Below are positions 8,144 through 18,972 of a DNA stretch of 64,000 bases, in pieces. The stretch lies in the NCBI RefSeq assembly GCF_007750395.1, contig NZ_CP036281.1, positions 3,495,001-3,559,000 on the forward strand, read 5' to 3'. The position numbers and the translations under genes were made by a program. Numbering within the stretch: the first letter of the stretch is position 1; each line of letters begins with the position of its first letter. The notes under the pieces were generated by a model. That model worked only from the letters and a program-made list of their open reading frames with translations, was not told the DNA's origin and ran no database searches. The stretch comes from Polystyrenella longa. GTDB lineage: Bacteria > Planctomycetota > Planctomycetia > Planctomycetales > Planctomycetaceae.

Positions 8144-10516
8144 TTGGCTAAGAAACGACGTTCTACTTCTTCCGTTCCTCAAGAGCAAAACACGGATAAC
8201 ATCAAGTATGTTTCCCTCAGTCAGGAGACACGGCGACGCTATCTGAACTACGCTCTCTCCGTGATCACCTCTCGTGCTCTGCCTGATGTGCGAGATGGCC
8301 TGAAACCGGTGCAGAGACGAATTCTGTATGTCATGTTCGCCGACCTGCGATTAACCTTTGATGCCAAGACCCGCAAGTCCGCTAAGATTACAGGGGATAC
8401 CACTGGGGGGTATCACCCACACGGAGACATGGCCGTTTATGACGCCATGGTTCGTCTGGCACAGGACTTCACGTTGCGGTATCCGTTAATCAATGGTCAG
8501 GGTAATTTCGGTTCGATCATGGGGCTGCCCGCAGCTGCTGCACGTTACACTGAAGCCAAGTTAACGTTGATCGCGGAAGAGTTGCTTAATGAAATCCGGA
8601 GTCGCACAGTCGACATGCGGACGAACTACGACGGAACACGTAACGAACCCGTCGTGCTCCCAGCCCGGTTCCCGAACATTCTTGTGAATGGAACTTCCGG
8701 TATTGCGGTGGGAATGGCAACGAACATCCCTCCCCACAACTTAACAGAGGTCGCCAATGCCTGCCAGTTTCTGATTACGAATCCAGAAGCAACCGTGGCA
8801 CAGGTCATGAAATATATTAAGGGTCCGGACTTCCCTCTGGGTGGCCGAATCGTAACGGACCGCACCACGATTCGAAAAGCTTACGAAGAAGGTCGGGGAT
8901 CCGTCAAAGTTCGTGGCGAATGGCGGTTCGACAAAGAGAAGAAGGTAGAAAACCCAAACAAGATTGTCATCTACACGATCCCTTACGGAATTGAGTCCGG
9001 GAATTTTGTGAATGACCTCGGGGATATCGTCGCCAATCGCAAGCTTCCACAGTTAGTAGACGTCTCGGATGAAACGAATGACGAGAACGGACTTCGCATC
9101 GTCCTCGATATCAAACCCGGGTCCGACATCGACGCCGTTATGGCGTACCTTTATAAACATACAAATTTTGAGCAGAACTTCTCGCTCAACCTGACTTGCC
9201 TTGTTCCCGACGAACAGGGAGGTACGATCCCAGCCCGCTTGAGTCTGGTACAGATCCTGAAGGAATTTCTTGATTTCCGTTTCAAAACCATTACCAGGCG
9301 TTTTGAGTATCAGCTGGAACAACTGGAGAAACGCATTCACATCCTGAACGGGATGGTATTGATCTTTAAAGGCTTGGACCGAGCCTTGAAGATCATTCGC
9401 AACAGTAGTGGAAAACAAGACGCCGCCGTTAAATTGATGGCAGAGTTTCCGCTGGATGAAATCCAGACCTATGCGATTCTGGAATTACAATTGTACCGCA
9501 TTTCGCAGCTCGAGATTGATAACATCAATGAAGAGCTGAGACAGAAAGAGGCCGAAGCAGAAACGATTCGTAAGATTCTGGCTTCGCCGAAAAAACTCTG
9601 GAAAGTGGTCAGCACCGAGTTACAGGATCTGACAGATAAGTTTGGCGACAAACGCCGCACATCGATTGGCAACGTTGAAGAAATAGTCGAGTACGATCCG
9701 CAAGCATATATCGTCAAGGAAAACACCAATGTGGTGGTGACGCGCGAAGGCTGGGTCAAACGTGTTGGTCGCCTGCAGAAGGTTGAAAGCACTCGAGTAC
9801 GTGAAGGAGACACGGTATTGAACGTGATTCCGACAAGTACGCTGGACCAGATCATCTTTTTCGCCAGTGACGGAGCAGCTTACACGATCACTGCCGATCA
9901 GATCCCCGCTTCCTCAGGATATGGTGAGCCCCTGGCGAAACATGTTCGACTGGGAGATGGAGTCAACATCGTCGCTGCCATTTCAACGGATTCCCGTTTC
10001 ACGGATGAAGACTTCGAATATCATGGGTATCCCGTTCCGGGACCATACCTCTTTGTCGCCACGGAACGCGGACAGGTCTTGCACATTCCATTGACTAACT
10101 TCCGCCAGCCCTCCACCAAAGCGGGCCGCCGTTATTGCCGGTTGGGTAAAGGAGATCGCGTGGTGTTCGTTCGATTGATCGGAGAGGCCGAAACAGTCTT
10201 CCTCGCATCTGAAATGGCTAGAGTTGTTCACTTTTCACTGGAAGATGTACCGGTCCTTTCCAGCGCCGGCAAAGGGGTCCGTGGTATTAGACTCGATTCG
10301 AAGGATAAACTGCTGGGAGCTGCACTAATGGCTCGTCCGAGTGATACACTAAAAGTTATGAACTCCAACGACAAGCTTGTGAGCATGGGACAGACGAAGT
10401 ACACCGTCACCTCTCGCGGAGGTAAAGGGGTCCGGACCAGCATGCGAAGTACCTTCAAAGAACTAATACCACCTGAAATTGAGCTGATCGACTGGGCAAC
10501 GATGGAAGAAACTTAA
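8144..10516 (+). CDS. parC: Type IIA DNA topoisomerase subunit A (ParC/GyrA family)
   Basis: 790 residues, TTG start at 8144 supported by AAGGA 8 bases upstream. The A subunit cuts and rejoins DNA. Seen: the N-terminal DNA-gate motif ALPDVRDGLKPVQRR (residues ~45-59), the winged-helix motif GGYHPHGD (88-95), and the catalytic Tyr135 in AAARYTE. The C-terminal half (from ~510) is a beta-pinwheel with blades such as VVVTREGWVKRVG. No GyrA-box follows the first blade; only a late SRGGKGV occurs near residue 757, and QRR rather than HRR follows KPV, so I lean to the ParC (topoisomerase IV) side, though gyrase cannot be excluded. Residue 96, the equivalent of GyrA Ser83, is Met, while the Asp87 equivalent (D100) is kept. 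It forms an operon with the B subunit 70 bases downstream. Confidence 0.85.
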   Translation: MAKKRRSTSSVPQEQNTDNIKYVSLSQETRRRYLNYALSVITSRALPDVRDGLKPVQRRILYVMFADLRLTFDAKTRKSAKITGDTTGGYHPHGDMAVYDAMVRLAQDFTLRYPLINGQGNFGSIMGLPAAAARYTEAKLTLIAEELLNEIRSRTVDMRTNYDGTRNEPVVLPARFPNILVNGTSGIAVGMATNIPPHNLTEVANACQFLITNPEATVAQVMKYIKGPDFPLGGRIVTDRTTIRKAYEEGRGSVKVRGEWRFDKEKKVENPNKIVIYTIPYGIESGNFVNDLGDIVANRKLPQLVDVSDETNDENGLRIVLDIKPGSDIDAVMAYLYKHTNFEQNFSLNLTCLVPDEQGGTIPARLSLVQILKEFLDFRFKTITRRFEYQLEQLEKRIHILNGMVLIFKGLDRALKIIRNSSGKQDAAVKLMAEFPLDEIQTYAILELQLYRISQLEIDNINEELRQKEAEAETIRKILASPKKLWKVVSTELQDLTDKFGDKRRTSIGNVEEIVEYDPQAYIVKENTNVVVTREGWVKRVGRLQKVESTRVREGDTVLNVIPTSTLDQIIFFASDGAAYTITADQIPASSGYGEPLAKHVRLGDGVNIVAAISTDSRFTDEDFEYHGYPVPGPYLFVATERGQVLHIPLTNFRQPSTKAGRRYCRLGKGDRVVFVRLIGEAETVFLASEMARVVHFSLEDVPVLSSAGKGVRGIRLDSKDKLLGAALMARPSDTLKVMNSNDKLVSMGQTKYTVTSRGGKGVRTSMRSTFKELIPPEIELIDWATMEET

Positions 10517-10586
10517 ACAGCCATCCTGCTCCGACTTCGGACTCTTTACATTTCTGTTTTCTTATTCTGATAGTAAAAAACATATT

Positions 10587-12506
10587 ATGGCAACAGCGAC
10601 CGATAACTCATATCAAGCAGACGACATTGAAGTTCTCGAAGGACTGGAAGCGGTTCGTCGTCGACCCTCCATGTATATTGGAGGAGTCGACTCTCGCGGC
10701 TTGCACCACCTGCTCTGGGAAATCGTCGATAACTCGGTCGACGAGTTTCTCGCGGGTGAAGCGAACCTGATTACGGTCACACTACATAAAGATGCCTGTT
10801 CGATGACGGTCGGCGACAATGGTCGTGGTATTCCGGTCGACACACATTCCAAAACAAAGAAGTCGGCTCTCGAGCTGATTCTGACGACGTTGCATGCGGG
10901 GGGAAAGTTTTCAAATAAGAACTATGCTCGCAGCGGTGGGCTGCACGGGGTGGGTTCCTCCGTCGTTAATGCACTGTCATCGGAATTGGTGGCGACCGTG
11001 CATCGTGACGGCCATGAATGGATGCAGCGTTTTAAATTTGGCAAAAAGACGACCCCCGTAAAGAAAGTCCGTAAATTTCGTGGGCACGGGACAAGCATTT
11101 TCTTTCGTCCAGATGAAAGCATCTTCAAGCGAATTCATTTCAATAGTGATATGATTCGCCAGCACCTGGAAGATATTTCATACATCCATGGTGGACTGAC
11201 CATCAAGCTTTTTGATGAGCCCAAAAAAGAGACTTATGAACTGAGCCATCCCGATGGTATTCGTTCTTATCTGGAAAAACTCACGACAGAGACATCTAAG
11301 AAACCAATTCACGACCAGCGATTCTTTGCTGAGAAAGAAGATGGCGATGTTAAAACCGAGTGCACTTTCTGCTGGACGGAAGCGACGGACGAACATATCC
11401 GTAGTTACGTGAACGGTATTCGCACCCATGGTGGCGGAACACACGAATCCGGTTTTCGCGCAGGTGTTGCCAAAGCGGTTAAGAATTACATGGATGTCCA
11501 TGACATCAAACACAAAGGGATTACGATTAGTAACGACGACATCCGTGAAGGAATTGTCGGTGTCGTTTCTCTGTTTCATGGCGACCCGATGTTCCAGGGC
11601 CAGACTAAGGAGAAACTGAACAATCCGGAAGTCAGCTCGATCGTCGAAGGCCTGGTACGCTCCGGTGTCGAAAACTGGATGAATAATAACTCGTCGATCG
11701 CAGATTCTGTAATTGGTCGAATTGTTCTTGCCGCGCGGGCAAGAATGGCAAGTCGGCAGGCGATTTCTGAAGTACGCCGTAAGACGGCCTCCACTAGAAA
11801 GAGCACTTTGCCTGGAAAATTGCTCGACTGCCAGGCATCCTCCACAGAGGACTCCGAACTATTCATCGTAGAAGGAGACTCGGCGGGCGGAACCGCGGTG
11901 ATGGGACGGAACAGTCGAACCCAAGCCGTCCTGCCTCTGCGAGGCAAGATTCTCAACACAGAATCATTGACGCTCAATAAGATCATGAATAACCAGGAAG
12001 TCAAAGACCTGGTTCAGACACTTGGCACGGGCATCGGGCCGAATTTCGATGTGCATCAACTACGATACGGTCGCATTATTTTGCTGATGGATGCCGACAG
12101 CGATGGTTATCACATCAGCACGCTGCTGCTGACTTTCTTCTTCCGTCATATGCTGGAAATCATTCGGCAAGGTCGACTGTTTATTGCACAGCCGCCTCTT
12201 TACCGAATCGCCGTAGGAAAGGAAGTACTGTACGCTCAGGACGACGCCCATAAGGAAGAGATTATCTCCAACATTCCCGCCAACCGAAAAACCGAAGTAA
12301 CCCGCTTCAAAGGTCTTGGCGAGATGGATGCGAAGCAATTGAAAGAGACCACACTCGACCCTACCAAACGAATTCTGCTGCGAGTCGAAATCGAGAATGA
12401 ACTCGAAGCCGATAGTACGTTCGCTCAACTCCTGGGGAAAGATGCTTCAGAGCGTTACCGGATCATTATGGACGAGTCCAGCTTCGCCGATGATATCGAC
12501 GTTTAA
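10587..12506 (+). CDS. parE: Type IIA DNA topoisomerase subunit B (ParE/GyrB family)
   Basis: 639 residues. The B subunit binds ATP and supplies the Toprim part of the cleavage centre. Seen in order: EGLEAVRRRPSMYIG and the GHKL ATPase motifs EIVDNSVDE, DNGRGIPV and GGLHGVGSSVVNALS (residues ~15-125), the transducer domain, the Toprim motifs EGDSAGG (~430) and MDADSDG (the DxDxD metal site), then QPPLYRI and the C-terminal motif RFKGLGEMD. Length fits the short GyrB/ParE type without the proteobacterial insertion. It follows the A subunit by 70 bases; that order (A then B) is the reverse of the usual gyrB-gyrA or parE-parC. No clear Shine-Dalgarno precedes the ATG, which suggests translation linked to the upstream gene or a leader-independent signal. 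Confidence 0.85.
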   Translation: MATATDNSYQADDIEVLEGLEAVRRRPSMYIGGVDSRGLHHLLWEIVDNSVDEFLAGEANLITVTLHKDACSMTVGDNGRGIPVDTHSKTKKSALELILTTLHAGGKFSNKNYARSGGLHGVGSSVVNALSSELVATVHRDGHEWMQRFKFGKKTTPVKKVRKFRGHGTSIFFRPDESIFKRIHFNSDMIRQHLEDISYIHGGLTIKLFDEPKKETYELSHPDGIRSYLEKLTTETSKKPIHDQRFFAEKEDGDVKTECTFCWTEATDEHIRSYVNGIRTHGGGTHESGFRAGVAKAVKNYMDVHDIKHKGITISNDDIREGIVGVVSLFHGDPMFQGQTKEKLNNPEVSSIVEGLVRSGVENWMNNNSSIADSVIGRIVLAARARMASRQAISEVRRKTASTRKSTLPGKLLDCQASSTEDSELFIVEGDSAGGTAVMGRNSRTQAVLPLRGKILNTESLTLNKIMNNQEVKDLVQTLGTGIGPNFDVHQLRYGRIILLMDADSDGYHISTLLLTFFFRHMLEIIRQGRLFIAQPPLYRIAVGKEVLYAQDDAHKEEIISNIPANRKTEVTRFKGLGEMDAKQLKETTLDPTKRILLRVEIENELEADSTFAQLLGKDASERYRIIMDESSFADDIDV

Positions 12507-12564: not shown

Positions 12565-15500
12565 TCAGGTAATTGACCAGAGATCGAGATCGTCACTGAG
12601 ATCGAAGTCGCCATCGTCGTCTGTGGTTTCGGATTTTGACTTTGATGGACTCGAATCGGATTCGTCATCGACTTGTTCAACAACAGGTTCCTTTTCGGCG
12701 ACAGTTTCGACCTCCGGTTCGTCCTGATTCTGTTCAGTTTCAGCATCTTCCCTGGCTTGTAACTTCTTTTGTTCTTCTGCGGCAGCTTCAGCAGCCTCTT
12801 CTTCTTTGCGACGTTCTTCTGCGGCAAGAATTGAGGGCGGGTCCGCTTCTTCTTCAATCGGCAATTCCGCAATTGGTTCACGTGAGGGGTCGAGATAAGA
12901 ACCAACCCAGTTGATCCAGGCGACCGTAGGAAATCCGTAAGGTCGGAACTTATCCAACCGACCCTGATCTTCCTGATAGAAGAACGCACGATGTGTCCCC
13001 AGACGGGAAGCAACGGGACTGTCGATAAAGTTACTTGAGTCTGTCGCGTTCATATCGAAGGCGACACGGGTCTCCATTTCACGCAGCAACTGTGAGCTCA
13101 TCCAGCGGGTGACGTTGCTGTAACTGTCACACCAGATCAACAAGTGGACGCCAACAGCGGGTCCCTCTTTGATGATCTTCTGTAGATGATCGGCCCCTGT
13201 GACCACGCTGGAACCACGGGAACTGTTGAATCCAAAATCATCATCCGTTTTTCGCAGTTCGCGGAACCGCCCTAAGTGATAGATGACAATAAAAATCGGA
13301 GGCTGTTTGTCTGTCGCATCGGTTTTGTATCGCCAGGCAACATGCTGTGCCGCTTCTTCGAGGAACTCGTCCGACTTTCGGATGCCTCCCAGTTTGACTT
13401 GATGCGGAATTGCGGGAAGTATTTCTTCCCAGTGAGTCATTTCGGGCTCTTCATCCAGGTCTCCATCAAGGACATAGAATGTCGCTGCGGGACTGGTCGG
13501 ATCCTCTGGCGATTTCGGTTCAGGGCTGCTCGACATTCCGAATGGATTGGACGAACTATCTCCAAAGGGTGAACTGGAGCTGACAGGTTTGCGAAACATG
13601 TCCGGGACACCAGAGTCATCGCTGGAGGAATCGCTCGAAAGCTCCGCTTCCAGATCTGATAGTGATGGAAGCCCTGGGTCGTCGCTACCCAGTTCGTTGG
13701 CTGATTCGTCGGAGGATTCCGCACTGGATGGTCCCCCCGGGAAGGCGGGGAAGCTACCAAAAGAATCTTTTTCGTCGCTGGAAGCGTCGTCCTCTGTAAT
13801 AGAAGACGTGGTCGCGAATGATTCCGGCGGCCAAGTCGTCGGCAATTGAGCCGACAGGCTAATCAAACCAGTCGCTAGAATTCCCCGCGCGGAATCGGCT
13901 TTCGCCCCCACCATCAACAGATGGTTGCCGCTTTGCCGACGGAACTCGCAGAATGCGGGCTCGGTGATGGCGACTGCTTCTCCCAACCACATTTTGTAAA
14001 GTCGGGGAAACTTGGTTTCGCGGTGTTTCGGTCGTGACTGGACAATTTCTGTCAGCACTTCGTTGCGTGCGGCATCCGAAGCAATATTACCCTCGAAGAC
14101 GATGGGGGGCTCGAAATGAAGACCTTCCTGTCGCACTCGGTTTGCAATGATACCCAGGTATTTATCACGCGTAGAGTCTCCCAACCAGGCAATCTGGAAT
14201 GGATGGTTACCTTCAAGCAGACCGTTCGCATCGTTGTAGATCGCTTCCCCCGGTCGCGTTAACAGTCGGGCGGCAGTATTTTCTTCGCTCAAGATCAGGT
14301 GAGCATCGCTCTCGCTACATTGCAGCGCGATACGCACCGCAACCTGTCCCAGCGTACTGCGAGCCAGCGAGTAGGCACCGCCCAATGTTTGAGAACCGAG
14401 TAATACATGAATACCAAACGCACGACCTTGACGAACCAGTCGGTCGAGAAGCAAAGTCGCGTTCTGAGCCAGATTATCGTCTTCAACAAAGAACTCCTGG
14501 AATTCGTCGACGATTAACATAACACGCGGCATTTTCACATCGGGACGGGCTTTTCGGAAACCGGCGAGATCCTGCACGTTATGATCGCGGAAGAGATCTC
14601 CGCGTTCTTTCAGCATTTCATCAAGACGTTCCAAGACGCTCACACCAAATTCGCGGTCGGACTCGATGGCAATGACTTTTGCATGAGGCAACCGATGCGC
14701 TGCATAGGTTTTAAACTCGACCCCTTTCTTGAAGTCGATCAGAAACAACTGAACCTGATCGGGGGAGTAATACAAGGCAAGGTTCGTGATCAGAATGTGC
14801 AGAAAGGTTGATTTACCAGAACCTGTTTTACCAGCAATCAAGACGTGTTGTGACGTCCCTTTACCCAGGTTCATATGCTGCAACTTAGTCGCCCCAGCAC
14901 GTCCCAATGGAACGGAAAGGCCAGACTGACTGTTGTTCTTCCATATCTCCCCTTTAGGGGGAACGACACGTTCAAACGAGACTTCGACACGACGGGCATC
15001 TTTGGAGAGTTCTCCAATGCGACGCACAATCTGCCCGAACAACTGTGGTTCCGGTGGAGGAATAAAATCGAGATCAAGGTTTTTCAGTTGTGGATAAGAG
15101 AGGTAGTACTTCCCCCCTTCCCATTCGAAGGTTGTCGAACATTTCTCTAGTTCTTCGATATCAAAACCATGTGGTAACTTCTGTTTGGTATCGACACTGA
15201 TCAGCGTATAGACGCCACATCGGGGACCACTGCTCGCAATGGAGATCAGGCGTTTTGATGCGGTGTCGTTGAAGTTGTAGGGGAAGTTCGCAACGACCAG
15301 AATACGGTAAGGTTCAGCAACCTCACCCGCATGATGGTTGTAGTCTTCGATTGTTTCATATTCATTTCGGAGATACGCCTGGAAGACGTTCTCCATGTGC
15401 TCAGTCAACTCGGAGAGTCGAGCGTCGATCTGGCCGGACTCCGTCCAGATCCGGTTATTGATCATTAACTCATCGTAGTCAGCGAGGTGCATAAAGGAGG

Positions 15501-17193
15501 AATAGTCTTCCCCCAAACCCATGGGGTCGATGATGGTAAATCGGACTTTACCCGCAGGTAAGGTGGCCAGTAACCGAAGCATGGCCGACTGCATCATCTC
15601 CGAACATTTCTCGCGACTCTCCGTATTGGTCTTGATCATCATCGATGTGTAATTAGGGAACGGCAGAACCAGAGGAACTTTATAATCAGTCTGTTCCGGA
15701 ACCATGTTTCCGTCCATCGGGATGGCGTCGTCGATGTCGGACATTTCGAAATTCATGTCGCCCAGACGAATAGCGTGCGGAATCTTGCGGGGAAGTTCCC
15801 ACGACGGATCGATCATTTCCGACCAGGCTGGTGTTTCGCGGTTACTGACGTCCTGCATATGGTGAATGCGATCATCGAGCGACGTGAGTGATTCTTTCCA
15901 GTTAGTCATCATTCCATCGCGAGTCTGATGCTCCGCTTCCTGCTGAGACTGCACATAATCTTGCTGCTGCTTTTCAACGTCTCCATATTGCTCTTTGAAA
16001 TGTCCCGTCATTTCATGAAGCTGGTGTTGATACACCTCTCCCGCTTTATTGATCTCGGCCTGTCGAGTCTCTTCAAGATTTGCAATTTTAGGTTTATAAG
16101 TCTGCTCGAACTTATTCAATATCTCCGAATGAGATTGTTCAATCTCTTTTATGCGGGCAGCATGCTGGCGTTCGACCTTCTGTAGTGCCGCCTGTCGTTG
16201 TTTTTCAATTTCCTTATAGACTCTTACGTATTCCTTCTTTTCGCGTTCCAGATCTGCTTTACCGTTTCTAACCCACAATCGCTGAGCGTACTGGCTGTTT
16301 ACGAATGATTTCTGCAAGTGATAAAAACGGCTCTTTGCTTTTCCCATCACAGCAAAGTAGAAGAATGCCGAAACCAGCAACGACGCACCACTGCCGATAC
16401 CAATACTGTAGATCAGCCAGTTGTCGTCACCGTTTGTCATGTTGAGGCCAAACCACGCAGGATTGACCACAAACAGAATAAGCCCGGAGATTGCAGCGGC
16501 GATCAGGACAAAGACGATAATGATCTTCCATCCAGCGACCAGCTTCGGCATTAGACTTTTCTGTAACTGACTGAGGGCCTCTTCGACTGCTTCGAAATTC
16601 TCACGGAACAGATCGCGGGCTTCCTGTAACGTGTTTGCCTTTAATTCCGATGAGGGGGCGACATCTTCGGTAGGGCGAATTCCCCAGTTACCGACGATAG
16701 CGGTCGCCTTTTCTTTGAGCTGACTTAAAATCTCTTTGTCAGATTTAAACTGCTCCTGCCCCTTCTCCAGCGAGGATTTGAACTGATCAAATTTCAGCTT
16801 GGGGCTATCATCGGACTGGTCGTCGAACATCGACTTAACCATCCACTCCGATTCCTGCATTTTTTCCTGTGCTTCAGATCGCTCGGCCGCGACATTTCGG
16901 TCCGTTTCCGCTTTACGGGCATCATACTCCTGCTGGACAGCGGCAATCTGTGCGTCAAAATCGGCGCTGATCTGCTGGCACTGGCTCTCGAAATGTTGCT
17001 TCAGCTCTTCCGTGCGGTATTGGTGTTCACCTTGAGCCTGCTGGAGAGACTGCCGGTACTGTTCGGCTTTCTCCATCGTGACATCGCCGAACTGCTTATC
17101 GAGATGATTTTCGGATTTGAGCCGGCTGGCGACGGCATTTTTGAAATCGGAGATGAGATCGGATTGAGCGGAGTGTGATAGCGGTTTCGCCAT
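12565..17193 (-). CDS. Large membrane-anchored FtsK/SpoIIIE-type ATPase with coiled coils
   Basis: 1542 residues from the Met at 17193 (MAKPLSHS); an in-frame Met 20 codons upstream (17253) is possible. Order: Gln/Glu-rich coiled coil (~5-215), two transmembrane helices (~217-242 and ~258-283) separated by a short loop, a second coiled coil (~290-430), a degenerate nucleotide-binding-like module (~510-700, containing FTIIDPMG), a canonical FtsK/SpoIIIE motor with Walker A GKTGSGKST (bases 14806-14832) and Walker B LIVDEF (near 14500-14520), then a third, degenerate module (Walker A position reads GAKADSARG) split by a long Ser/Asp/Glu-rich insertion (bases ~13495-13850). The C-terminus is an acidic coiled-coil tail. 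Three consecutive modules recall EccC/EssC of type VII secretion, but no WXG100 gene is nearby. Role inferred: DNA or protein translocation at the membrane. Convergent with the topoisomerase operon, 58 bases apart. Confidence 0.75.
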   Translation of the reverse strand: MAKPLSHSAQSDLISDFKNAVASRLKSENHLDKQFGDVTMEKAEQYRQSLQQAQGEHQYRTEELKQHFESQCQQISADFDAQIAAVQQEYDARKAETDRNVAAERSEAQEKMQESEWMVKSMFDDQSDDSPKLKFDQFKSSLEKGQEQFKSDKEILSQLKEKATAIVGNWGIRPTEDVAPSSELKANTLQEARDLFRENFEAVEEALSQLQKSLMPKLVAGWKIIIVFVLIAAAISGLILFVVNPAWFGLNMTNGDDNWLIYSIGIGSGASLLVSAFFYFAVMGKAKSRFYHLQKSFVNSQYAQRLWVRNGKADLEREKKEYVRVYKEIEKQRQAALQKVERQHAARIKEIEQSHSEILNKFEQTYKPKIANLEETRQAEINKAGEVYQHQLHEMTGHFKEQYGDVEKQQQDYVQSQQEAEHQTRDGMMTNWKESLTSLDDRIHHMQDVSNRETPAWSEMIDPSWELPRKIPHAIRLGDMNFEMSDIDDAIPMDGNMVPEQTDYKVPLVLPFPNYTSMMIKTNTESREKCSEMMQSAMLRLLATLPAGKVRFTIIDPMGLGEDYSSFMHLADYDELMINNRIWTESGQIDARLSELTEHMENVFQAYLRNEYETIEDYNHHAGEVAEPYRILVVANFPYNFNDTASKRLISIASSGPRCGVYTLISVDTKQKLPHGFDIEELEKCSTTFEWEGGKYYLSYPQLKNLDLDFIPPPEPQLFGQIVRRIGELSKDARRVEVSFERVVPPKGEIWKNNSQSGLSVPLGRAGATKLQHMNLGKGTSQHVLIAGKTGSGKSTFLHILITNLALYYSPDQVQLFLIDFKKGVEFKTYAAHRLPHAKVIAIESDREFGVSVLERLDEMLKERGDLFRDHNVQDLAGFRKARPDVKMPRVMLIVDEFQEFFVEDDNLAQNATLLLDRLVRQGRAFGIHVLLGSQTLGGAYSLARSTLGQVAVRIALQCSESDAHLILSEENTAARLLTRPGEAIYNDANGLLEGNHPFQIAWLGDSTRDKYLGIIANRVRQEGLHFEPPIVFEGNIASDAARNEVLTEIVQSRPKHRETKFPRLYKMWLGEAVAITEPAFCEFRRQSGNHLLMVGAKADSARGILATGLISLSAQLPTTWPPESFATTSSITEDDASSDEKDSFGSFPAFPGGPSSAESSDESANELGSDDPGLPSLSDLEAELSSDSSSDDSGVPDMFRKPVSSSSPFGDSSSNPFGMSSSPEPKSPEDPTSPAATFYVLDGDLDEEPEMTHWEEILPAIPHQVKLGGIRKSDEFLEEAAQHVAWRYKTDATDKQPPIFIVIYHLGRFRELRKTDDDFGFNSSRGSSVVTGADHLQKIIKEGPAVGVHLLIWCDSYSNVTRWMSSQLLREMETRVAFDMNATDSSNFIDSPVASRLGTHRAFFYQEDQGRLDKFRPYGFPTVAWINWVGSYLDPSREPIAELPIEEEADPPSILAAEERRKEEEAAEAAAEEQKKLQAREDAETEQNQDEPEVETVAEKEPVVEQVDDESDSSPSKSKSETTDDDGDFDLSDDLDLWSIT

Positions 17194-17772
17194 TATGTTA
17201 GCCAATCTGAAAAGGCGCGTTCCCAACGGCCTGGCAGCAGCGGTGCGGGCCAAGCTGAAAGGATGCTTCCTTGATACCGAAAAGTTGAGTTTGTGGTGTT
17301 AAGTATCAATGAGAATTCGTTTTGCCTCACTTTAGGAGGATGACAAATTCTGAGTTCCGTCTGAGACTCGATACGCGATAGAAGTCAGGCCGTGAAAATG
17401 AAGTGTCAGGAACTGGCCTGAATCAGGGGTAGAAACGTTGGCCTCAAACTGGCCCAACAAGGCTGCCGACTTACCCTGATCGTGCTGAAGATGATACTTT
17501 TATTATCGAGCCTATCCCGGCTTAAGGCAAGCGGTTGCAGGGATATTGTGAACGCAGACCTAGATTCTTCAGATATTCCTATTTAAGCTTACCACAAAAA
17601 AAACCGGGAGGCTCCCAGAGAGGGAACATCCCGGTGTAAGTTTTCGTTGTTTGTCACGATTCTGAGGGAGATTTCCCACTCAGTCAATTCGTCAGACCAT
17701 GCAAGACGTTACAGTCCCTGTGACTGAATCGGTCTGACTAACCGATTGCTTGTGACATACTGCGATTTAAGA
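17194..17772. other. Intergenic region
   Basis: About 580 bases between two minus-strand genes. Apart from the terminator at 17595-17635 I find no gene or RNA. The first 60 bases would be coding if the ATPase starts at 17253. Confidence 0.5.
17595..17635 (-). terminator. Rho-independent terminator of the YHS-domain gene
   Basis: Outer arms ACCGGGA (17603-17609) / TCCCGGT (17629-17635) with an inner TCCC/GGGA pairing; on the minus strand the stem is followed by a run of eight T (complement of the A-run at 17595-17603). It lies 138 bases past the stop of the gene at 17773. Confidence 0.85.
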
Positions 17773-18240
17773 TTACTCTTCTTTTTCCACTTTCTTGAAA
17801 CCTTTAGCGAAGGCGGCATCGCTAAACACGAGTGCCAGTTGGGCATCTTCGTCGGTTTCGCCAGCAACTTTGCCTTTGCAGTTGTTGCAACAGAAGGTGA
17901 CTTCAACATCGTTCAAAGTGATTCCCGTTTCTGGGTTCAGTTTGCCACCGGAGATTGGGCAACCAGTCTGTTCGAACTGACCGGAAGCAACCAACTGATG
18001 ATTCGCTTTCACGGCGAATTTTTCTGGGTTCTCTTTGAATGCTTTGACGCAATTACCGCAGCAGAAGTAAACTTCCGCACCTTTATAAGCAACCGATTTG
18101 TCCATGTTGACCGGTTTTCCGGCGACAGGACAGATCAGTTTGGGAGCTTCTTCTTCAGCAGCGGTCGTCACAGTAGGAACGGCTTCCAGAGCGAAAGCGG
18201 TCAATGTGAAACAGGCCATCAGGGTCATTAATTTTTTCAT
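17773..18240 (-). CDS. Secreted protein with two YHS-like metal-binding units
   Basis: 155 residues from the ATG at 18240 (AAGG 9 bases upstream); an in-frame ATG 12 codons earlier would put a charged stretch before the signal peptide and is less likely. After the signal peptide (MKKLMTLMACFTLTAFALEA) come two similar units: CPVAGKPVNMDK...VYFCCGNC (residues ~36-65) and CPISGGKLNPETG...VTFCCNNC (~93-120). Each has the CP-x-(S/A)G and CC-x-NC pattern of YHS/TRASH-like heavy-metal-binding domains. Binding of copper or another soft metal in the periplasm is inferred from the motif, not proven. The next gene upstream also encodes a small exported Cys-rich protein. Confidence 0.75.
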   Translation of the reverse strand: MKKLMTLMACFTLTAFALEAVPTVTTAAEEEAPKLICPVAGKPVNMDKSVAYKGAEVYFCCGNCVKAFKENPEKFAVKANHQLVASGQFEQTGCPISGGKLNPETGITLNDVEVTFCCNNCKGKVAGETDEDAQLALVFSDAAFAKGFKKVEKEE

Positions 18241-18486
18241 AGTAATACCTTTTTTTTCATTTAAATTTTTGTTCATTTAAAAATGAAAACGAAACTGAGT
18301 GAATTTAAAACTGGACTTCACGAGTCGGAATGCGTCGGCGTAATGCTGATCGGCAAGTGACGCGGGAAGTCAGTAAACAAGCTTGAATACATGTTAAATA
18401 CAGACATGCTGAAAGCAGAGAACACGCCGCATTACGACGTACTAAATAGCGGCACTGGCTTCAGATCACGGTTAGAAGGGGCCGAT

Positions 18487-18972
18487 TTAGCAGTTCCAGA
18501 CGCACAATCGAGCGCGCACCGCGAGCGGGGCGTCGGGGGCTTGATCGGCAAGATGCCAATAGGAATCAAGGCTCTCGAATTTAAAGAGAGAGTGCTGACC
18601 ATCGATTCCAACTAGAAATTCCAATGTCTCCAGCAAATGATCTCGAAACGTCTGATCGACCTTTTCCACGCGGGCGCCCTGTTCCCACTGGGAACGGCAA
18701 CGGCATGGTTCCGATTTACTGTCGGGGTCTTGGGTGCTGGCAGGTAACCGCTGTTGGCAACAGGGTGGTAGACTTTCGTGCAGAATGGCGTCATTTCGTG
18801 ATGTTTGCACCACAACTGGGGTATTCCCCTCCGCCTGCTCGTTCCTATTGGAGAGCTGTTCCTGAATATTGCTCAGAACCTTCATCGTGCAACAGCAGGG
18901 GCGTGGTTGGCTTTGCGCAATAACACTCAGTCCCAAAATGAGATTGAGTATTAAACTGAATGACGCGTACAT
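18487..18972 (-). CDS. Small exported Cys-rich hypothetical protein
   Basis: 161 residues starting with a hydrophobic leader (MYASFSLILNLILGLSVIAQ). The mature part has several Cys pairs (CCC near 26, CC near 72, CRC near 92, and a terminal CVWNC), a polar Gln-rich middle, and no known domain. Same strand as the YHS gene, 246 bases upstream of it, so they may share a metal-related job, but this is inference from position and Cys content. Composition is acceptable for a real gene, yet with no recognised homolog I keep moderate confidence. Confidence 0.5.
   Translation of the reverse strand: MYASFSLILNLILGLSVIAQSQPRPCCCTMKVLSNIQEQLSNRNEQAEGNTPVVVQTSRNDAILHESLPPCCQQRLPASTQDPDSKSEPCRCRSQWEQGARVEKVDQTFRDHLLETLEFLVGIDGQHSLFKFESLDSYWHLADQAPDAPLAVRARLCVWNC

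Follow-up and report, generated by a model that had tools for sequence, protein, structure and literature searches.

The 64,000-nucleotide stretch of Polystyrenella longa DNA analysed here (contig NZ_CP036281.1, positions 3,495,001 to 3,559,000; hereafter the window) carries, on the minus strand at 12565–17193 including the stop codon, an uninterrupted open reading frame (ORF) of 1542 amino acids. The frame opens with an ATG at 17193, a TTG at 17253 offering an alternative, longer start. From the ORF, Pfam, a structural model and Foldseek comparisons, its product (P0001) is predicted to be a three-module ATPase resembling EccC and EssC of type VII secretion systems (T7SS). Two coiled-coil-like regions, read as such from amino acid composition, flank a predicted transmembrane hairpin: the first (residues 1–215; 16549–17193) appears helical, being charged, rich in Gln and Glu and poor in proline, the hairpin (residues 224–282; 16348–16524) was placed by hydropathy and ortholog counts, and the second region follows at residues 306–469 (15787–16278). 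Module 1 (residues 470–735; 14989–15786), assigned from the alignment, a profile link to module 3 and the model, is a predicted alpha/beta domain devoid of Walker motifs. Module 2 (residues 736–1020; 14134–14988), delimited by PF01580, the alignment and fold matches, is the sole module with intact FtsK/SpoIIIE motifs. Module 3 (residues 1041–1440; 12874–14073), recognized by its profile–profile match to module 2 and in the model, appears degenerate and is interrupted by a Ser/Asp-rich insert (residues 1122–1233; 13495–13830). An acidic tail (residues 1441–1542; 12568–12873) closes the protein; all these features lie on the minus strand.

The P-loop pattern occurs only once in the 1542 residues, as the Walker A motif GKTGSGKS (residues 788–795; 14809–14832, minus strand), and the pattern scan detected none in modules 1 and 3. 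The Walker B motif, identified from the alignment, is MLIVDE (residues 892–897; 14503–14520, minus strand), which provides the DE of a DEFQEFF stretch. When the window protein was aligned with 40 orthologs, Walker A in the form G-[KR]-T-G-S-G-K-S and the DE of Walker B were present in all 41 rows, while DEFQEFF was variant in five of them. In agreement with this, Pfam places PF01580 on the middle module alone (best stretch 755–936, E 5e-34 for the protein).

Residues 470–1450 were modelled with AlphaFold2 from an alignment of 64 rows, giving three ordered alpha/beta regions (mean predicted local distance difference test, pLDDT, 81; predicted template modelling score, pTM, 0.73) and one disordered stretch with pLDDT <50 at model residues 653–764, that is, protein residues 1122–1233. 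The fold alignment, A3, excludes 16 near-copies and L124, whose sequence was too short; L185, probably frame-shifted and taken as a 21% row, was kept in A3 for the fold and excluded from the tree described below. Profile–profile comparison related module 3 to module 2 with a probability of 96–97% and module 1 to module 3 with one of 95%; modules 1 and 2 gave no direct match (probability <1%). The original prediction, made from the DNA letters alone, of three nucleotide-binding modules with Walker A and B in the middle one only and with the third split by a Ser/Asp-rich insertion is thus borne out, and more than one ATPase-like module was found.

The likeness to EccC/EssC that had been proposed also stands. 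Among solved structures, the nearest in sequence is 4nh0, the EccC of Thermomonospora curvata, which leads the Foldseek matches (E 3e-30) ahead of EccC 4n1a and EssC 4lya and 5fv0, with FtsK motors next. In VIA-align, 4nh0 (Z 28.0, root-mean-square deviation (rmsd) 13.3, 715 aligned residues) and 4lya (Z 29.0, rmsd 6.5, 493 residues) both span more than one module. The NCBIfam type VII models match the FtsK/SpoIIIE region with scores below their cut-offs (EccCa 104.6 against 509 bits, EccCb 102.7 against 347, EssC 89.5 against 778). Judged by the structural model, the fold class of the ATPase is EccC/EssC-like.

The match of the modules to EccC domains is tentative. The active module is nearer by sequence to D1 than to D2, both in EccC5 (80 versus 32 bits) and in T. 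curvata EccC (66 versus 54 bits), and in a profile alignment to YukB (9qks) module 2 follows without a break where module 1 ends. For these reasons we lean towards equating modules 1, 2 and 3 with the degenerate domain preceding D1, with D1 and with D2, respectively. The section of PMC11090510 on EssC homologs labels the central active domain D2, which is the opposite assignment.

The hydrophobic helices of the hairpin lie at about residues 224–242 and 264–282. Across orthologs, hydropathy finds two N-terminal hydrophobic segments in 102 of 118 usable rows, one in 12 and none in four; the 118 are rows with a long N-terminus (three more were too short), and some genomes are represented by both an ORF and a stop-to-stop frame. 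The two membrane helices and the acidic tail had both been noted correctly. The helices had, however, been taken as an addition to the type VII plan, which does not hold, since EssC itself has membrane helices according to PMC11090510. As for the low-complexity parts, residues 1116–1235 are 28% Ser and residues 1441–1542 are 36% Asp plus Glu. The insert region measures 131 residues in the window protein versus 14–38 in 36 of the 40 orthologs, and the acidic tail 103 residues versus at most 30 in 31 of the 40. The insert and the tail are genuine, yet mostly lineage-specific.

Three small genes, here called A (about 90 amino acids), B (about 160–260) and C (about 75–85), recur directly upstream of the ATPase gene and in the same direction. 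They were sought at 40 ortholog loci, namely the 44 ATPase loci minus our own and those of G001, G019 and G023. Of the 40 loci, 23 show the order A-B-C-ATPase in one direction, and 29 have one or more of the three small genes; of the 11 loci without any, two (L042 and L066) begin at a contig edge and thus have no upstream sequence. Among 80 genome-contig loci, A was found in 45, B in 47, C in 51 and all three in 45. Named species in which frames for A, B and C adjoin the ATPase gene include Singulisphaera acidiphila (L147), Limnoglobus roseus (L170) and Zavarzinella formosa (L191). Within the 64-kb window itself, the search for genes like A, B or C came up empty, which upholds the earlier remark that no WXG100 substrate lies nearby. 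P. longa nevertheless has the trio: roughly 0.7 Mb away from the ATPase gene, on the plus strand, the three lie together at G000:C1 4226162–4227410.

The phylogenetic profile suggested with the original prediction proved decisive. Among 59 relatives, our own genome included, a long ATPase match was found in 41 and A in 41, with 40 shared, and B and C were each present in exactly the 41 ATPase-positive genomes; the remaining 18 have no ATPase gene. A and the ATPase were also profiled among 294 planctomycete genomes sampled from the whole phylum: 40 have the ATPase and 39 have A, each of these 39 being among the 40 (Fisher 6e-48, ancestry ignored). The ortholog cut in that set, E <1e-40, was chosen after the list had been seen; the next matches shown beyond the orthologs have E 1e-20 or weaker and involve mainly the FtsK-type domain. 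The genes need not be neighbours: in G006, a single-contig genome, the ATPase, A and the B–C pair lie at three distant places, and in G029 each of the four genes is on a different contig. Given several genomes with the genes so far apart, neighbourhood linkage alone cannot explain the pattern, and the four genes are shown to be co-inherited near-perfectly.

Some genomes depart from a one-to-one set. G046, G050 and G058 (L047, L049, L050, L059, L060 and L064) each have two ATPase, two B and two C genes with one A. Two genomes with partial ATPase matches were excluded from the ortholog count. In G033, where the four-gene set was not found, a 1767-residue protein (L196, 2985–8285) has a C-terminal FtsK domain and, by size and layout, is perhaps SspH/DndH-like. 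In G012, a 379-residue ORF (L197, 6456–7592) resembles module 1 only (29% identity over residues 509–696); it has no Pfam match, and neither A, B, C nor the full ATPase was found in that genome.

Judged by Pfam, A is shown to be a WXG100 protein: the three A proteins tested and the A of our own genome all exceed the cut-off of PF06013, of which the latter is the sole match above cut-off in the whole genome. Of C, three members tested had no Pfam match above cut-off. Hidden Markov models (HMMs) of A and C retrieve each other's members (E-values from small sets), and C is therefore probably a second, diverged hairpin of the superfamily of A. A conserved C-terminal tail of A reads YLQQR in 46 of 76 sequences. 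Two B proteins tested had no Pfam domain above cut-off and no LXG match. The one B that was modelled (mean pLDDT 86.5) is predicted to form a two-helix hairpin (residues 8–77 and 84–159) with a low-confidence tail; Foldseek returned nothing under 0.001 for this model and no specific structural relative, and its VIA scores were middling, as is typical of long helices, so that no family is claimed.

Taken together, co-inheritance with three small helical partners, one of them a WXG100 protein, suggests that the ATPase is the membrane-anchored motor of a minimal, stripped-down type VII-like export system with A, B and C as its partners, and we consider this reading probable. The ATPase would form a ring on the inner membrane, assembled via the hairpin and the coiled coils; A, B and C would constitute a helical complex that it recognizes, and ATP hydrolysis by the middle module would power the passage of A/C and/or B through the inner membrane. 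Modules 1 and 3, being degenerate, may serve recognition and regulation. Such roles have been reported or proposed for EccC/EssC.

Several observations weigh against an exporter of this kind. Export itself is something we infer. Where WxG would be expected, 74 of 75 A and 79 of 85 C sequences have WxD (the C motif counts may include a few A rows), and the export motif Yxxx[D/E] is found on none of 76 A C-termini and on three of 85 C. YukC/EssB and YukD gave no match in our own genome at E 0.1, with a positive Bacillus subtilis control, nor did EccB, a search with no positive control. No toxin domain was seen on B (two tested by Pfam, one modelled). Planctomycetes are diderm, and no recurring outer-membrane component was found in the neighbourhoods of 41 loci. 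The co-inheritance has its exceptions: G016 has A alone, in G037 the ATPase is present and A was not found, and in G271 the ATPase is split over two contigs and no A was found. Finally, single-domain VIA-align matches barely probe the folds of modules 1 and 3.

Type VII secretion has been described mainly from Gram-positive phyla and mycobacteria. The planctomycete set shows tandem EccC/EssC-like FtsK/SpoIIIE modules with modules 1 and 3 degenerate, N-terminal transmembrane helices on the ATPase by hydropathy, and a WXG100 protein encoded or co-inherited with it. It lacks the WxG turn motif and a Yxxx[D/E] on the WXG100 partner and stays below the NCBIfam curated cut-offs, and no FHA domain appears among the Pfam matches of the ATPase up to E 1. 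In view of the missing motifs, the sub-cut-off scores and the lack of YukC/YukD matches in our own genome, we do not file the four-gene set as T7SSa or T7SSb; it would function like one, and it belongs to a broader kind of system combining WXG proteins with a three-module ATPase, as a toxin-less member with a membrane anchor. Like T7SSa, T7SSb and the T7SSc–j types described in PMC11217815 from Bacillota and Actinomycetota, it has a membrane-anchored multi-module FtsK-type ATPase and WXG100 proteins. The planctomycete set differs in the features just listed and in that only the middle module is active.

Systems of this broader kind have been described before. Table 1, footnote 6, of Zhang et al. 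2012 (PMC3482391) lists planctomycetes among the lineages with WXG proteins and a three-module ATPase whose middle module is active. The mobile WXG/YueA-like systems treated in that paper share with ours three HerA/FtsK modules, of which the middle one is the sole active module, and a WXG partner. The planctomycete set differs from these systems, as presented there, in having two further partners and a membrane hairpin, and in being chromosomal, co-inherited phylum-wide and dispersed in some genomes. In its account of Type III-A CoCoNuTs and TerY-P, PMC11090510 describes EssC homologs that lack transmembrane domains, carry a coiled coil at the N-terminus and have only the central domain predicted to be active, alongside a pair of WXG100 proteins and a nuclease partner with a coiled coil. 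The correspondence with our set is close (one active centre among three modules, a long coiled coil at the N-terminus, a coiled-coil partner and a pair of WXG100-like proteins); in contrast to these CoCoNuT-linked homologs, however, the planctomycete ATPases have a conserved hairpin, and B has no added domain in place of a fused nuclease. A combination of WxG and FtsK proteins in Helicobacter pylori has been called a minimal type VII set in PMC4978471. B with its partners A and C may have an analogue in the LXG effector and its targeting factors Lap1 and Lap2 (PMC9600955), where a long helical protein has two small hairpin partners; however, the B proteins tested have no LXG match or toxin domain, and the FxxxD motif occurs on none of 76 A sequences.

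The suggestion that the ATPase might be the motor of an undescribed planctomycete translocation system has thus fared unevenly: a motor is favoured by the co-inheritance of WXG100 and helical proteins, but "undescribed" was too strong in the light of PMC3482391 and PMC11090510. The idea is not new, since the 2012 footnote and the 2024 paper describe WXG proteins with a middle-active three-module ATPase. In the open-licence full-text literature, we found no paper on a planctomycete system, only the passing mention in that footnote. The set described here differs in the membrane hairpin of the ATPase, a B free of nuclease, WxD in place of WxG, and four genes kept together phylum-wide.

A tblastn search of plasmids returned 26 records, of which five were examined, from Caballeronia, two Rhodococcus, Deinococcus and Helicobacter species. 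Each of the five ATPases has one P-loop-type match. Modules 1 and 2 were detected in all five, and module 3 in four, where the three profiles match in order, weakly for module 3 in Caballeronia; in Helicobacter module 3 was undetected by itself. A quick tree separates the planctomycete ATPases, as one group, from the five plasmid ones (support 94), the plasmid branches being very long. An A-like gene adjoins the ATPase gene in four of the five plasmids (75, 50, 31 and 19 bits, each reached by 0 of 500 shuffles); in the second Rhodococcus plasmid the A-like score was 9 bits and was not shuffled. The Caballeronia A-like protein lies above the Pfam WXG100 cut-off, those of Helicobacter and Rhodococcus AH-ZY2 below it. 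Rhodococcus AH-ZY2 and Deinococcus each have a B-like stretch (score reached by 0 of 500 shuffles), the likeness consisting of long helices only. A B-like N-terminus in the B-position proteins of Helicobacter and Caballeronia was rejected, as the HMM score was reached by 422 and 8 of 500 shuffles, respectively; the toxin link in these two is accordingly one of gene position.

The plasmid neighbourhoods are varied. In the Helicobacter plasmid, from a cat Helicobacter (L201, 4761–9163), the gene next to the WXG-type one encodes a protein ending in a WHH/colicin-type nuclease domain; then come a SUKH-type gene, one the size of C and finally the ATPase gene, an order that looks like a toxin–immunity arrangement beside a related motor. 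The Caballeronia operon (L198, 4555–14538) encodes WXG100, the related ATPase, CARF, two VWA proteins, a PP2C phosphatase and a kinase, and TerD genes accompany the ATPase of the Rhodococcus AH-ZY2 plasmid. The readings of a Caballeronia protein as a nuclease and of a Rhodococcus C-terminus as ParB-like were made by eye, and Pfam gives nothing for either. Small ATPase neighbours in Deinococcus and R. pseudokoreensis end, again by eye, in a hydrophobic helix, and these systems may for this reason have a separate membrane anchor.

As plasmid relatives encode a nuclease-ended or longer B-like protein beside A and the ATPase, the planctomycete system may, as a hypothesis, be a toxin-less, chromosomal relative of the plasmid-borne sets. 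The scattering of the genes in some genomes despite their co-inheritance would suggest that the set has a conserved role in the cell and is not a mobile weapon. It is tempting to speculate, more tentatively than for the export function and as a possibility that we would stop short of favouring, that planctomycetes possess a minimal membrane-anchored four-protein exporter that lost its fused toxin or never had one, uses no known accessory membrane protein, shares a common stock with mobile toxin-linked WXG/FtsK operons and has taken on such a role.

The alternative that best withstands the data, unlikely as we hold it to be, is an intracellular conflict or stress system, in which the ATPase and WXG-type proteins would act inside the cell, for example by assembling or releasing a helical effector upon infection. 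None of the five plasmid ATPases has a clear membrane helix: two have no hydropathy window over the cut and three have one just over it (1.62–1.71), two of these falling inside module 1. The VWA, PP2C, kinase and CARF genes of Caballeronia and the TerD genes of Rhodococcus AH-ZY2 would also suit such a system, the operons described in PMC11090510 are placed there beside predicted restriction systems, and the PADLOC matches of the ATPases are FtsK/HerA-type domains belonging to other systems, SspH and mad8 among them. Intracellular action may equally be a candidate for the CoCoNuT- and TerY-P-linked relatives. The planctomycete orthologs, however, mostly carry the membrane hairpin, and B has no long extra domain (163–257 amino acids in the 44 of 47 genome-contig frames with an ATG near the start). 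Moreover, the families common to at least four of 41 loci are, beyond A, B, C and a frame antisense to A (8 of 8 cases), only DUF1501, DUF7133 and GFO/IDH/MocA, which lie 0.8–11.5 kb from the locus on either strand. These observations argue against an intracellular system.

A second DNA translocase, used for chromosome segregation or division in the FtsZ-poor planctomycetes, seems to us considerably less plausible still. Division is unusual in this phylum, and the top VIA-align score does belong to an FtsK motor (6t8b; Z 31.4, rmsd 2.5), over 278 residues of the middle module. Our genome, however, encodes a separate FtsK, a 797-residue frame matched by PF01580 much more strongly than the ATPase (E 1.3e-65), and an extra FtsK-type match is present in 37 of the 41 ATPase-positive relatives (all except G007, G010, G013 and G019). 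The gene, furthermore, is missing from the 18 relatives mentioned above, and to our knowledge neither a three-module plan nor WXG100 co-inheritance is a feature of FtsK. An ordinary chromosome-segregation FtsK was rejected as the main explanation on account of the three modules, the lack of a gamma-domain match in Pfam and the separate FtsK; in our genome the ATPase is additional to that protein. Least credible of all is a coupling ATPase for DNA import or conjugation of the TcpA/TraB/CedB type: TcpA 6o1x ranks high in VIA-align (Z 27.7, rmsd 2.3, 253 residues) and the CedB and TraB profiles match weakly, but these matches are confined to the FtsK-type domain that all such proteins share, the scores of the EccC profiles are far higher, and no would-be relaxase or pilus family is among those common to at least four of 41 loci. 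A viral origin was also considered and rejected: one scan of viral contigs with alignment A3 found no relative, and the matches listed from a viral fold library, some of them unnamed, were for the most part FtsK proteins, packaging proteins and others of P-loop or RecA type.

Read as an exporter, the set joins an ATPase, a WXG100 protein and hairpin partners, co-inherited in a diderm phylum, with no other type VII part found in the one genome searched. It offers a small system for asking what the minimum of a working type VII-like exporter is and what use is made of degenerate ATPase modules, and it bears on how mobile toxin-delivery genes might become a stable chromosomal set. It also adds partners B and C, and a testable gene set, to an idea that, for planctomycetes, we met in print only as a footnote.

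The surroundings of the ATPase gene in the window are of a different nature. GyrA/ParC-like and GyrB/ParE-like genes occupy 8144–12506, the latter tail to tail with the ATPase gene at a distance of 58 bases, and a YHS-domain gene and a small cysteine-rich gene with a CCC motif lie upstream of it (17773–18972). A conserved window neighbourhood was rejected, as the gyrase/topoisomerase and YHS genes fall in no family common to at least four of 41 loci. A pair resembling the YHS and cysteine-rich genes is, by eye, also present upstream of the ATPase gene at L033, a locus of the same genus.

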